DNA of 64,000 bases from Desemzia incerta (GTDB lineage Bacteria; Bacillota; Bacilli; Lactobacillales; Carnobacteriaceae). The stretch spans positions 91,795 to 155,794 of the forward strand of contig NZ_FOXW01000002.1 of assembly GCF_900115825.1 (NCBI RefSeq), given 5' to 3'. Every line of letters starts with the position of its first letter. Positions within the stretch are counted from its first letter, which is position 1. The notes beneath the pieces were generated by a model. It was given only the letters and a program-made list of their open reading frames with translations, searched no databases and was not told where the DNA came from. Position numbers and translations under genes: made by a program. This document shows, one piece after another, positions 28,501-33,517 of this stretch.

Positions 28501-28563
28501 AAAAAAGACTGAACAAAGTCATGCCCAATTTTTGGGCGGTAAACTTTGTTCAGTCCTTTTTTT
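28501..28563. terminator. Bidirectional terminator between trpS and lplA
   Basis: Long stem GACTGAACAAAGT / ACTTTGTTCAGTC with an inner GCCCAATTTTTGGGC hairpin, A run left and T run right. Confidence 0.9.
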
Positions 28564-29581
28564 AATAAATCAAATGGACTAATTCTTCTCTAGTAATATC
28601 TCCAAAATACTTCTTGATGTCTATTTCATCAAATGCTGCGGAAATCGTTTTTGCTTCGTATTTAATGCCGGTTAATTTTTCTTCCACATCAGAAATTTCT
28701 CCTAGTCCAAAGAAATCTCCGTATATTTTGATGTCTTGGATGATACCTTTTTCAACGTTCAATTTCACATCGATAGATCCTATAGCAAATCGTTGACTTC
28801 TTTCAATGTCAAAGTCGGGTGATTTCCCATAATTCCATTCCCAATTTCCAGTGTATTGTTTCGAGAACTCTTCTATTTTATCCCAGTCTTTTTCTGTTAA
28901 TTTGAATTCTTTAACCTCTTCAACAGAGTCGACTTCAAAAATGTTCAATAACAATCTTTCACGGAATTGCTTCGTATTCATAAATTGGAATTCATCAGAC
29001 ATAAATGGTTTGATGTTGGTTACGCGACTTCTAACAGACTTGATTCCTTTAGATTCCAACTTTTCTTTTTTTGGTTTTAAAGCTTTTACTACTGCATCGA
29101 TTTCGCTGTCAAACATGATCGTTCCATGAGCTGTCATACGCCCATTTTTGGAGTACATTGCATTACCAGAAAATTTTTGTCCATTGATCAGCAAATCATT
29201 CCGTCCTTTTAGTTCAGCACCTTCGACCCCGATTTTATGCAAGGCTGTAATTACCGGTTCAGTAAATTTGCTGAAGTTACGGAAAGAATCCCCATCATCT
29301 TTTGTGATAAAACAAAAAGACAGATTTCCGAAATCATGGTAAACAGCACCGCCGCCAGAAAAACGACGCACGACATGAATATTGTTTTGTTCTACATAAT
29401 CGCGGTTTACTTCCTCATATGCATTTTGGTTTTTTCCTATTATAATGGAAGGCTCATTGATATAGAACAACAAAATCGGTTCATCGAGATGAATTTCATT
29501 CAATAAATAATATTCAATCGCTAAATTTAATCTAGGATCTGTTATTTCTTCTCCATTGCGCTCATTTTTTACGTAATACAC
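28562..29581 (-). CDS. lplA: Lipoate-protein ligase
   Basis: 339 residues from GTG 29581; the ATG at 29608 would put the AAAGGGGA ribosome site inside the gene. Signature RRFSGGGAVYHD and the catalytic lysine in GQKFSGNAMY are present, followed by the C-terminal accessory domain (WEWNYGKSPDF). It attaches scavenged lipoate to E2 subunits or GcvH in two steps with ATP. It lies 64 bp downstream of the metallo-beta-lactamase fold gene, like yhfI-lplJ in B. subtilis. Confidence 0.93.
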   Translation of the reverse strand: MYYVKNERNGEEITDPRLNLAIEYYLLNEIHLDEPILLFYINEPSIIIGKNQNAYEEVNRDYVEQNNIHVVRRFSGGGAVYHDFGNLSFCFITKDDGDSFRNFSKFTEPVITALHKIGVEGAELKGRNDLLINGQKFSGNAMYSKNGRMTAHGTIMFDSEIDAVVKALKPKKEKLESKGIKSVRSRVTNIKPFMSDEFQFMNTKQFRERLLLNIFEVDSVEEVKEFKLTEKDWDKIEEFSKQYTGNWEWNYGKSPDFDIERSQRFAIGSIDVKLNVEKGIIQDIKIYGDFFGLGEISDVEEKLTGIKYEAKTISAAFDEIDIKKYFGDITREELVHLIY

Positions 29582-29645
29582 ACTGCATTCCCCTTTTCTT
29601 ATAATCACTTCATCCTACTAATTCATGAATCTCTATTCCGTTGCT

Positions 29646-30386
29646 TCAAATGGTAATCAGCAGATCCTTCTCTGCTAATAGGACTTCTTGAGAACCAAAT
29701 TCTGCTGCAGCTTGTTCTTTCAATAAAGCTAAATCACCTTGTTGGGGCAAATGAGTCAACACTAATTTTTTAACTTGTGCTTCTTTTGCTATTCTCCCTA
29801 CCTCGGTTGCTGTCATATGCACTCGATGATTCTCCATTCCATGAAAGAAATTTGTATCAGCCAGCAACAGATCAGCATCTTTTGAAAAAGGGATAAAGCC
29901 TTCTAGATAACCTGAATCTGCTGTAAAGACCAACACTTTCCCCGTATTGACTTCTTCGATGCGAAGGGCAAAACAAGGTACAGGATGCAAGGTCTTCATA
30001 GCTGTAATCTCAAAAGGCCCCACTGTAAAAGCCTCATTCTCTCTGTAGGCTATTCCTTTTGAAACGCGGTCCATTGTCAATCGATCAAAATTCTCTTTAT
30101 CTTCCTCATGACCGTAGATAGGTACAATTGGGGCACGGTTCTCACCTATCCCCTTCAATTGACGAGTAAACTGGAATACCCCTAAATCCGCTATATGGTC
30201 ATGATGATAATGAGAAATCAAAACAGCATCTATATCTAATGGATCTATATGGTTTTCTAACGCAATCAGCGATGCACTTCCTGCATCTAACCATAAATGG
30301 TAGCCATCAGATTCAATCAAATAAGAGCTGGTTCCTCCATTTCTTGTGGGATAACCTCCCCAATAACCTAAAATTGTCAGTTCCAT
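29646..30386 (-). CDS. Metallo-beta-lactamase fold hydrolase (YhfI-like)
   Basis: 247 residues from ATG 30386 behind GGGAGG; the 276-residue frame would include non-coding sequence. Metal-binding HYHHDHIADLG, then HPVPCFALRIE, DSGY and a final THL motif resemble RNase Z-like and phosphodiesterase members of the superfamily. Substrate unknown. Followed by lplA as in the B. subtilis yhfI-lplJ pair. Confidence 0.85.
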   Translation of the reverse strand: MELTILGYWGGYPTRNGGTSSYLIESDGYHLWLDAGSASLIALENHIDPLDIDAVLISHYHHDHIADLGVFQFTRQLKGIGENRAPIVPIYGHEEDKENFDRLTMDRVSKGIAYRENEAFTVGPFEITAMKTLHPVPCFALRIEEVNTGKVLVFTADSGYLEGFIPFSKDADLLLADTNFFHGMENHRVHMTATEVGRIAKEAQVKKLVLTHLPQQGDLALLKEQAAAEFGSQEVLLAEKDLLITI

Positions 30387-30551
30387 CATCTTACCTCCCA
30401 ATTTTCTTTCCTCCACTTTAGTCCAGTGGGGGTTAAAAATCAAACAACCACTTTGTTTTGGTTTTGTTCGTTTCATTTATCATAACTAAAATCTTACTTT
30501 AGAATTAAATTCACAAACACTACTTTACAGTATTTCAGAAAAATATGAAAT

Positions 30552-30586
30552 AAAAAAAACATTCAAATCGTTAAATTTGAATGTTT
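30552..30586 (-). terminator. Terminator of the hemY-like gene
   Basis: Stem AACATTCAAAT / ATTTGAATGTT followed by T8 on the minus strand. Confidence 0.9.
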
Positions 30587-30605
30587 TCTCGCTTTCAATC
30601 TTGTA

Positions 30606-32012
30606 TTAAAGACAATTCTGTTTTTTTATCACTTCTACCAACTGTTCACCAATTTCGTTTCCTTGTCTGATACAGTGGTTTAAACCGAAACCTTCTAAAC
30701 CGTTTCCGCCTATTAAGACACCAGGATATTTCTCTTCCAACATTGGACCAACAACTTCTTTCATCGTCTGCTCTTGGTGAACAGAAAAATGAGGAATGGC
30801 GTCTGGCCAACGTTTGATGATACGATAATTTGGTTTTTCTGTTACGCCAAGGATCATTTCTAAATCGGCTAAGATTTTTTCTTCGATCTCTTTATTGCTT
30901 AACGAAACAATCATGTCTTCACCTTTACGACCAAAATTCACTCCAAGCAACACTTCTTTAGAGCCGTATAAACTTGGCCATTTTTTTCCTAGAAAAGTAA
31001 TGGAAGAAACAAATGAATCATTTCTTCTAGGAGTCAATATCCCAAAACCATCAGGATAGTTCTTGATCGATTCTGGGTTAAAACTAAAAACAATATATCC
31101 AATAGAAGCGGTTTTGATTTGAGAAAATTGTTTATTCAGTTCTTTATCTTTAAACAGCTTTGTATACTCAGTTGTTGGTGTTGCGACACAAATCGCACCT
31201 ACACGAACCTCTTCTTTAAGATTTATATTGAGAATGTATGTATTCTCTACACCAGGTTTGATTTCAACTACCTTTTTACTGTACTGGATATGAGGCTTTA
31301 GGATTTCTTCAAGTTTATCGGTTAATACTGAAAGACCATGAGCAAATGTAGCATAATTTCCTGAACGATCTTCTAGTTCGGGATGCTCTTGTAAGGCTTT
31401 TTCAATCGTTCCATACTTTTGTTCTAACTCAAAAACCGTTTCACGATTAGCTCTAACACCCATATCATCAATATCGTTGGCGTAAACTTTTGAAAAGAAA
31501 GGCTCTAACATCAGCTCAACAATTTCATCACCAAGTCTTCTCTTTAAGAAACTGCTCACTTCAATATCCTCTGTTAACTGCTCTGGCTGCAAGAAACGAT
31601 CTTTAAACGTAGCCACTTTCCCGTTAAAAGAAAGCATTTTACTTTTCCAAATATCCATTTTGTTCATCGGGATACCTTTATACGTCGGAAAAGAATTATG
31701 GTGCAACTCATTATAGTAGAATAGATCTTGTTTACCGCCTTCACTATAGACAAGTTGGTCTTCAATTCCCAATTCTTTAATTAATTCCAAGGCTTCTGGA
31801 TAGCGAGTATCAATAGATTCTGCACCTAAATCCAGGTATTGATTCTCTACTTTCATACTGTAGATTTTACCGCCGACTCTAAGAGAACTCTCTAAAATAA
31901 TCAGCTCAAATGGTAAATCTTCCGCCTCAATTTTCTGTTTGATACGATAAGCAGCCGTCAGACCCGTTATACCTCCACCGATCACTGCAATCCTTTTTTT
32001 TGCTCGCTTCAT
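30606..32012 (-). CDS. hemY: HemY/CgoX-type porphyrinogen oxidase
   Basis: 468 residues from ATG 32012 (CAGGTGAT upstream; the TTG at 32054 has no proper ribosome site). FAD motif AVIGGGITGLTAAY, then GGKIYSMKVENQYLDLGAESI, a central FAD/substrate region and the C-terminal LIGGNGLEGFGLNHCIRQG. The family oxidises coproporphyrinogen or protoporphyrinogen with O2. No other haem gene is in the window. It could also be a divergent flavin oxidase of the amine oxidase superfamily, but length and N-terminus fit HemY well. Confidence 0.82.
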   Translation of the reverse strand: MKRAKKRIAVIGGGITGLTAAYRIKQKIEAEDLPFELIILESSLRVGGKIYSMKVENQYLDLGAESIDTRYPEALELIKELGIEDQLVYSEGGKQDLFYYNELHHNSFPTYKGIPMNKMDIWKSKMLSFNGKVATFKDRFLQPEQLTEDIEVSSFLKRRLGDEIVELMLEPFFSKVYANDIDDMGVRANRETVFELEQKYGTIEKALQEHPELEDRSGNYATFAHGLSVLTDKLEEILKPHIQYSKKVVEIKPGVENTYILNINLKEEVRVGAICVATPTTEYTKLFKDKELNKQFSQIKTASIGYIVFSFNPESIKNYPDGFGILTPRRNDSFVSSITFLGKKWPSLYGSKEVLLGVNFGRKGEDMIVSLSNKEIEEKILADLEMILGVTEKPNYRIIKRWPDAIPHFSVHQEQTMKEVVGPMLEEKYPGVLIGGNGLEGFGLNHCIRQGNEIGEQLVEVIKKQNCL

Positions 32013-32111
32013 GCTATTATCACCTGCCAACAACTCGAATTCATTTACCAACAACCTTCTCTAAAAATACTTACTTTATTAACTATTCAGAGTTTTAATG
32101 CATATTTTTCA

Positions 32112-33194
32112 CTAGTCGAACGTAATACTTTTTACTGTTTCAGCATCTAATCGTTTAACGACTTCAGTCATCAACTTTACCGTATTCATGTAATCTTCTT
32201 CATGAATAACGGATGTATGAGAATGCAGATAACGAACCGGTACCGTCACAGCTAGAGAAGGGATTCCGTTGTGAGAAACGTGCTGACTTCCAGCATCGGT
32301 TCCCCCACCCATTATGACTGTCAGCTGATAAGGTATGTTCAATTCTTCTGCTATTTTAATAACAAAATCGCGTAATCCTTTATGAGCAACCATAGAAGCA
32401 TCATATAAAATGATTTGAGGACCTTCTCCCAATTTAGAGTCTGCTTCTTTAGCTGTCATACCTGGTGTATCACCAGCCGTTCCAGTATCTAACGCAAACG
32501 CAATATCAGGATTAACTAAATGAGTAGCTGTTTTTGCTCCTCTTAACCCCACTTCTTCTTGGACATTACCTACTCCATAAGCTATGTTAGGATGGTCCGA
32601 TTGACTCAAATTTTCCAAAACTTTTAATGTTACAGCTGTTCCAATACGATTGTCCCAAGCTTTTGCTAATAAAAACTTCGAATCGTTCAGTCTTCTAAAC
32701 TCAGTATAAGGAGTAATCATATCTCCTAATTTCACACCCCAAGAAGCAACTTCTTCTTTGCTTCCAGCTCCTATATCAATAAACATATCTTTTATATCGT
32801 AGGCTTTTTCACGTACTTCTTTTGTGAGAACATGAGGCGGCTTACAACCAATAACTCCATGGACTACCTTACCAGAACTTGTAGTGATCTCTACTTGTTG
32901 AGCTAACATGACATTTGCCCACCATCCGCCTAGAGGAGTAAAATGGATAAAACCATCATCTGTGATAGAAGTCGCCATAAAGCCTACTTCATCTAAATGA
33001 CTGGCAAAAAGAATTTTGGGTCCTGATTGATCCCCTGTTTTTTTAGCAATAATACTGCCTAAATTATCATATGTAATCGAGTCTGCAATAGGATCTGCAT
33101 ACTTTTTAAATACTTTACGAACTTGTCCCTCATTTCCAGGGACTCCTTTAGCATCCGTTAGTTCTTTTAAAAAATCGATATCTGTATTTTCCAA
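32112..33194 (-). CDS. M42 family glutamyl aminopeptidase
   Basis: 360 residues if started at TTG 33194, six bases after GGAGGGG; the ATG at 33209 is upstream of that site and seems unlikely. Metal and catalytic residues are in [29 protein letters not shown] and ALDTGTAGD, with a final [11 protein letters not shown]. Cytoplasmic dodecameric aminopeptidase family. It shows strong similarity in motifs to the third copy at 59407, so they look like paralogues. Confidence 0.9.
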
Positions 33195-33517
33195 ATTGGA
33201 CCCCTCCATCTGTTTTTCACATCATCCTCTTTATTATATCATGTATTATTTCGTTTTGGTTAAATACCACTGAATTAAATTTCTTTAATTGTGAACATCT
33301 AGTTCTAATTTATAGGCAATTTTTTGAAACAAATTAGATTCCAATTTAAAACCTTTTTAAAAACAATCGTTTCTTCTATACTATAAAGTTTTTTCTAGTT
33401 TCTGTCTCTTTATTTGTCTTTTTTATGATGTAAAGAAAGAAAACTTTATTCATTTCTAAAAAAAAAGTCCGAAATGATTTTCTCTTTATAAGAAAATCAT
33501 TTCGGACTGTATCGTCA
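33195..33517. other. Intergenic region upstream of the M42 gene
   Basis: AT-rich, no gene seen. It contains the terminator of the DUF1232 gene at 33457-33508 and presumably the promoter of the M42 peptidase, but I see no confident -35/-10 pair. Confidence 0.6.
33457..33508 (-). terminator. Terminator of the DUF1232 gene
   Basis: Long stem AGTCCGAAATGATTTTCT / AGAAAATCATTTCGGACT (loop of a few bases) followed by T9 on the minus strand. Confidence 0.93.

Follow-up and report, generated by a model that had tools for sequence, protein, structure and literature searches.

A gene for a porphyrinogen oxidase raises a question when the bacterium that carries it appears unable to make haem: what does the enzyme do? 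Desemzia incerta is a member of Carnobacteriaceae, and a stretch of 64,000 nucleotides of its genome (hereafter the window) contains such a gene, a homologue of hemY/cgoX standing apart from any haem operon. The first-pass annotation of this locus left three options, namely, a remnant, an enzyme that processes imported porphyrin, or another flavin oxidase role. In this study, the gene, its neighbourhood, its distribution in Lactobacillales and the predicted structure of its product were analysed. The third option is the best supported, and the other two are weaker. We consider it likely, with a probability of about 0.65, that a former CgoX, vertically descended from hemY, has become an FAD oxidase for a substrate other than coproporphyrinogen III.

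The gene, its neighbours and the missing haem genes

The open reading frame, the TIGR00562 match and a GxGxxG motif agree on a full-length porphyrinogen-oxidase homologue with intact FAD motif at 30606–32012, as the first-pass annotation had described; no strand was given there, and the frame was found on the minus strand. The gene and its neighbours are as follows (window positions).

30606..32012, minus strand: orphan HemY/CgoX-derived FAD enzyme, 468 amino acids, intact
30538..30600, minus strand: terminator-like RNA hairpin with U tract, directly 3' of the orphan stop (−19.9 kcal/mol, z = −6.07)
32112..33209, minus strand: M42-family aminopeptidase (PF05343), upstream neighbour, 99 bases 5' of the orphan ATG
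29646..30476, minus strand: metallo-beta-lactamase-fold (MBL) hydrolase, downstream neighbour, of the ancestral hemEHY neighbourhood
28562..29608, minus strand: lipoate-protein ligase LplA, downstream neighbour (TIGR00545, 457.6 bits, cut-off 280), also of the ancestral hemEHY neighbourhood

The ATG lies at 32012 and the final base of the stop codon at 30606, giving 468 codons. A longer start (TTG at 32054) is possible, and an AGGTGA site resembling a ribosome-binding site is located 7 bases 5' of the ATG. The protein passed the cut-off of TIGR00562 (protoporphyrinogen oxidase; 231.6 bits, cut-off 97.85), matched the Amino_oxidase domain PF01593, and missed the cut-off of the protoporphyrinogen oxidase equivalog NF008845 (317.6 bits, cut-off 560). 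On the latter model, the operon HemY of another family of the order (f7) reached 587.4 bits and passed (L069), and a second f7 copy narrowly missed with 551.6 bits (L070). A single copy of the orphan was found in the 2.33-Mb genome of D. incerta (19 contigs, given as 99.99% complete and 2.37% contaminated), and the copy of the closest named relative, Desemzia sp. RIT 804, is 86% identical.

None of 200 shuffles folded as well as the hairpin at 30538..30600, which a simple terminator scan did not list; the promoter and terminator scans gave little above the chance expectation (20 sites for 17.2 expected, and 3 for 2.9). The hairpin suggests that the orphan transcript stops before the gene of the MBL hydrolase, which we take to be YhfI-like, so co-transcription with the MBL gene and lplA is unlikely in Desemzia. 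Co-transcription with the upstream M42 aminopeptidase gene is possible. We considered a functional tie between the orphan and lipoate by way of lplA and set it aside because the neighbourhood is ancestral and the terminator-like hairpin lies 3' of the orphan.

Genome-wide searches of D. incerta found no ferrochelatase (PF00762), URO-D protein (PF01208, HemE), HemQ (PF06778), cytochrome bd subunit I (PF01654) or porphobilinogen deaminase (PF01379), and a B. subtilis positive control matched in each of these five family searches. The haem-gene scope comprised these five families, and the HemE search covered the family of Desemzia. UroD, CpfC and ChdC of the coproporphyrin-dependent pathway were thus not found in this genome, and Desemzia appears unable to make haem. 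The absence of hemE, hemH and other haem genes, claimed by the first-pass annotation for the vicinity of the gene, is borne out genome-wide for the families searched; the whole-genome check that it had proposed gave the same answer for all five.

Distribution and descent from the hemEHY operon

The order sample consisted of 395 genomes, and matches were accepted at E 1e-15 or better. The family of Desemzia (f1) was represented by 18 genomes from 6 genera; f4, f6 and f7 denote other families in the order. Matches were obtained in 91 of the 395 genomes (f1, 18; f6, 19; f4, 19; f7, 35). All 18 f1 genomes carry the gene; the identity is 57–100% in 17 of them (one copy truncated by a contig end) and 38% in G016; the 38 carriers in f6 and f4 belong to two further Lactobacillales families. 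All 35 f7 genomes contain HemH and HemQ and were taken as haem-competent; we guess that f7 is Listeria-like. Among the 56 carriers outside f7, ferrochelatase was found in two and HemQ in none. A hand count gave porphobilinogen deaminase in 10 of these 56 (one f1 and nine f4 genomes, one of the matches a fragment), so the other 46 seem unable to make uroporphyrinogen. Within f1, ferrochelatase was present in 2/18 genomes, cytochrome bd in 7/18, porphobilinogen deaminase in 1/18 and HemQ in 0/18. The orphan state is common to all sampled f1 genomes and to genomes of two more families.

A URO-D-domain protein (PF01208) was detected in one f1 genome of 18, that of Desemzia sp. RIT 804 (G001), and its assignment as HemE was rejected (TIGR01464, 39 bits against a cut-off of 302.95). 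This URO-D superfamily gene (L029:1859-2875) lies behind apparent ABC transporter permease genes and just before infC; it resembles cobalamin methyltransferase models (PRK06252, 84.1 bits) more closely than HemE, without reaching any cut-off, and no counterpart was found in the D. incerta genome. The sole two ferrochelatases among the 56 orphan carriers, in G002 and G003 (L020 and L021), are located far from the orphan hemY. They scored approximately 350 bits, like members of family f8, and f7 ferrochelatases approximately 275, which hints at a different origin; both genomes also contain cytochrome bd.

Two further observations concern the state of hemY copies. In one f4 genome (L080, G372), the orphan hemY is split in two pieces, and this broken copy indicates that gene loss is still ongoing in f4. 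In f7, the g35 genomes have two HemY genes each (noted in G214, G220, G229 and G244); the hemH-adjacent HemY is split or stop-bearing in 4/9 g35 genomes with a whole second copy elsewhere, and this paralogue may be taking over from the one in the operon.

Gene order was compared between orphan and canonical loci. The MBL gene and lplA follow the orphan in 17/18 f1 loci (the contig of the eighteenth ends too early), and an M42 gene lies upstream in 17/18, directly adjacent in 14. In f6, lplA was found downstream in 14/14 small loci and MBL in 11/14; in f4, lplA was downstream in all nine loci fetched and MBL in seven. All 30 canonical loci of Bacilli have hemE and hemH flanking hemY, and 4 have lplA close behind. 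Wider regions of 20 of these 30 loci place hemY after hemE and hemH in every case; 16 of them include the HmoB-like gene, 9 lplA, 6 MBL and 1 M42. Two f7 regions read prsA, ytxH-like, hit, ecsA, ecsB, HmoB-like gene, hemE, hemH and hemY in order, the identities of hemE and hemH being confirmed by profile models. G016 reads prsA, ytxH-like, hit, ecsA, ecsB, HmoB-like gene, hemY, MBL and lplA, and lacks hemE and hemH. We assigned the names HmoB, ecs, hit, prsA and ytxH by reference to B. subtilis. By these gene orders, the Desemzia gene is the hemY that remained after the loss of hemE and hemH. The gene is an orthologue of HemY/CgoX, as both the TIGR00562 score above cut-off and the shared hemEHY neighbourhood attest.

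The HmoB-like gene matches PF03992 in G016 and f7, and the G003 copy has no Pfam match. Relatives of this gene adjoin the orphan hemY in L030, L031, L032 and L044 (G002–G004 and G016) and are 25–31% identical to the f7 copy. The fate of the HmoB-like gene may mirror that of hemY.

The tree and residue comparisons used 17/18 f1, 14/19 f6 and 8/19 f4 sequences; G009, which a contig end truncates, and the broken G372 were dropped. The 35 canonical rows comprised 5 f7 sequences, taken from 4 of the 35 genomes of that family, and the 30 best-scoring loci of 242 matching genomes of the class, so they lean towards kin of the f7 query. In agreement with the gene order, all 35 canonical rows fell on one side of a branch with 100/100 support, and the other side held f1 and f6 without G016 (97/92), f4 (100/99) and G016. 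The G016 gene is long-branched and falls outside f1, f6 and f4, though its genome belongs to f1; its exact placement is unsure, and the tree was flagged for long branches.

Fold and tetrapyrrole pocket

An AlphaFold2 model of the Desemzia orphan (mean pLDDT 91.5) had CgoX as its top fold matches (9a78, Z 46.0; 3i6d, Z 43.1, rmsd 2.2, 416 residues). Further PPOX and CgoX entries gave Z 39–42, and phytoene desaturase, the putative L-amino-acid oxidase 7EME and MAO-A gave Z about 30. On this model, the scaffold would be that of CgoX and the difference would lie in the pocket. The orphan resembles B. subtilis CgoX (3I6D) in fold, FAD residues and ancestral gene neighbourhood; it differs in the replacement of D65, K71, G175, F227, R364 and Y366, in an identity of only approximately 27%, and in a genome in which no hemE, hemH or hemQ was found. 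It shares the superfamily and the FAD site with the PgoX/PPOX enzymes of plants, animals and Myxococcus, to which the fold match is slightly weaker (Z 39–42) and whose pocket glycine is Lys in Desemzia.

Residues were compared in an alignment of 74 sequences and 3i6d, using B. subtilis CgoX numbering. Six residues were chosen from the published work after the differing columns were known; on this choice, D65, K71, G175, F227, R364 and Y/F366 are all present in 35/35 canonical rows, and the 39 orphans retain none (24 rows), one (13) or two (2). Desemzia keeps 0/6, with E65, Y71, K175, Y227, G364 and N366. FAD positions are 7/7 in 38 orphans including Desemzia, and 6/7 in G016. Two further residues from the same papers, I176 and T330, were also counted. 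Position 176, which in a published model sandwiches ring D together with the flavin, is V in Desemzia and I/V in 30/30 f1/f6 and 35/35 canonical rows, and is lost in f4 and G016; position 330 is T in 32 and S in 3 canonical rows, and T in 0/39 orphans. Position 68 is L in all canonical rows (35/35) and D in 37 orphans, with one N and one M. The new residues are fixed across genera.

The pocket-floor glycine 175, present in 35/35 canonical rows, occurs in 0/39 orphans, which have K (28 rows), E (6), D (2), Q (2) or S (1) instead. It is K in 28/30 f1/f6 rows and E, D or Q in f4, so these groups may not share a single substrate. The f1/f6 rows mostly carry K at position 175 and S at position 344, and the f4 rows (L067, L068, L072, L073, L074, L075, L078 and L079) carry E/D/Q and K/R; this possible charge swap may mark two substrate classes.

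Published work describes Gly175 as the most invariant pocket residue, with its carbonyl reaching towards the macrocycle, and this glycine as common to the PPOX of plants, animals and Myxococcus (PMC13119163), where the Myxococcus equivalent is G167 (PMC10740692). D65 is placed in a polar network at the flavin, F227 is called strictly conserved in CgoX and R364 highly conserved; K71A is reported with a 50-fold loss, and in B. subtilis CgoX the loss was nearly 100-fold in Y366N and 30-fold in I176A (PMC10740692). According to the same paper, K71 and Y366 are variable across CgoX as a whole; the losses given for R364 mutants read as modest or unclear, and a review terms D65 non-conserved (PMC10427985). 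F227 is mostly replaced by the similar residue Tyr in orphans (30/39). Because K71, Y366 and D65 are reported as variable, R364 losses read as modest or unclear and the change at F227 is mild, G175 weighs most. A long charged or polar side chain at this position, where the macrocycle would lie (K, E, D or Q in 38/39 orphans), probably points to a smaller substrate of greater polarity. Judged from the residues, the orphan is probably no longer a coproporphyrinogen oxidase.

These results bear on the rival reading that the enzyme is still a porphyrinogen oxidase, which would scavenge or detoxify coproporphyrinogen or protoporphyrinogen imported by the cell; we regard this reading as unlikely. 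The CgoX fold, the TIGR00562 score, the I/V kept at position 176 in f1/f6, the variability of some altered residues in CgoX at large, and the relatives G002 and G003 with ferrochelatase and cytochrome bd are all consistent with it; against these stand the loss of all six residues in Desemzia and of all but zero to two in the 39 orphans, the pocket glycine among them. Moreover, ferrochelatase, HemQ and cytochrome bd were not found in Desemzia, and retention of the gene tracks neither ferrochelatase (2/56) nor, in f1, cytochrome bd (7/18). The processing of imported porphyrin, as the first-pass annotation had suggested, is therefore disfavoured because residues linked to tetrapyrrole binding are replaced and neither ferrochelatase nor HemQ was found to use the product.

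An amine- or amino-acid-type oxidase would be a special case of the non-porphyrin FAD oxidase, and a doubtful one; the enzyme superfamily is the sole ground for guessing at an amine- or amino-acid-like substrate. The orphan shares PF01593 and a DLGAE-like motif with flavin amine and amino-acid oxidases (MAO, 7EME), and its LDLGAESID aligns with FLDLGAEWIQ of 7EME and YVDLGGSYV of MAO-B. D61, E65 and D68, near-invariant in f1/f6, replace the canonical ERGPDSFL, and D68 may match amine-contact residues of polyamine oxidases. However, the motif is not specific, since the equivalent stretch of tobacco PPOX reads GANTM; f4 and G016 carry S in place of E65; and the overall fold is far nearer to CgoX, with Z about 30 or less for the amine oxidases and 15–20% identity for MAO-A and 7EME. 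As the apparent closest motif match outside PPOX, 7EME may serve as a lead and no more.

Purifying selection and the meaning of the orphan group

A non-catalytic moonlighting role, such as binding another protein, is improbable. It draws on the PDB-listed integrative model 9a78 of a SYFB-CGOX complex, in which SyfB is presumably the phenylalanyl-tRNA synthetase beta chain of B. subtilis; no paper on 9a78 was among the matches listed. The FAD residues are nevertheless retained, and the pocket residues changed and then became near-fixed in f1/f6, which suits an altered substrate rather than lost catalysis.

The orphan gene is under purifying selection and is not decaying. Between D. incerta and its sister Desemzia, dN/dS was 0.060 (dS 1.3, near saturation), and three neighbour genes of the same pair gave 0.038–0.059. 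Values over 8 pairs from f1, f4 and f6, the Desemzia pair included, ranged from 0.025 to 0.117, and the match was free of internal stops in 18/18 f1 genomes (one cut by a contig end). A functionless, decaying remnant, as the relic hemEHY neighbourhood and the broken G372 copy might suggest, is thus very improbable given these values, the intact frames and the new residues fixed across genera. The word remnant from the first-pass annotation holds for the gene order and fails for the gene.

The non-porphyrin FAD oxidase would have arisen as follows. The hemY (cgoX) of the hemEHY operon of Bacilli would have been inherited vertically; hemE and hemH would have been lost in a Lactobacillales ancestor, with hemY kept beside the MBL hydrolase gene and lplA; and the tetrapyrrole pocket would have been rebuilt after the loss of haem synthesis. 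We infer that the orphan still binds FAD and oxidises something, coproporphyrinogen III no longer being its substrate. By analogy with CgoX, O2 would probably accept the electrons, giving H2O2. H2O2 is known from Desemzia sp. C1, and the orphan was considered as its source; the excerpted paper names lactate, pyruvate and NADH oxidases and not this enzyme (PMC9202405).

We lean slightly towards the further claim that the orphans form a new enzyme family derived from CgoX, its pocket rebuilt outside porphyrin metabolism, in 18/18 f1 genomes and 38 others. The fold and the family are already known, and the new part is the haem-free, pocket-altered HemY branch. No description of such a haem-free, family-wide, selected and pocket-altered branch was found among the open-access literature matches listed, nor in the available text of PMC10740692, a paper on CgoX/PgoX evolution in which the terms Carnobacter, Lactobacill and orphan are absent. 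A paper on D. incerta (PMC10964421) contains none of the words oxidase, heme and porphyrin.

For the orphan group, the annotation as protoporphyrinogen oxidase is probably mistaken. The gene could have been expected as a leftover; instead, it seems to encode an enzyme that survived the loss of its pathway by taking on another task, with G016 as a visible intermediate. If this reading is true, the name protoporphyrinogen or coproporphyrinogen oxidase misleads metabolic models of these bacteria, which would have a conserved flavoenzyme with a non-porphyrin substrate that is directly testable, and the orphan group would be a natural experiment on the residues that make a porphyrinogen oxidase.
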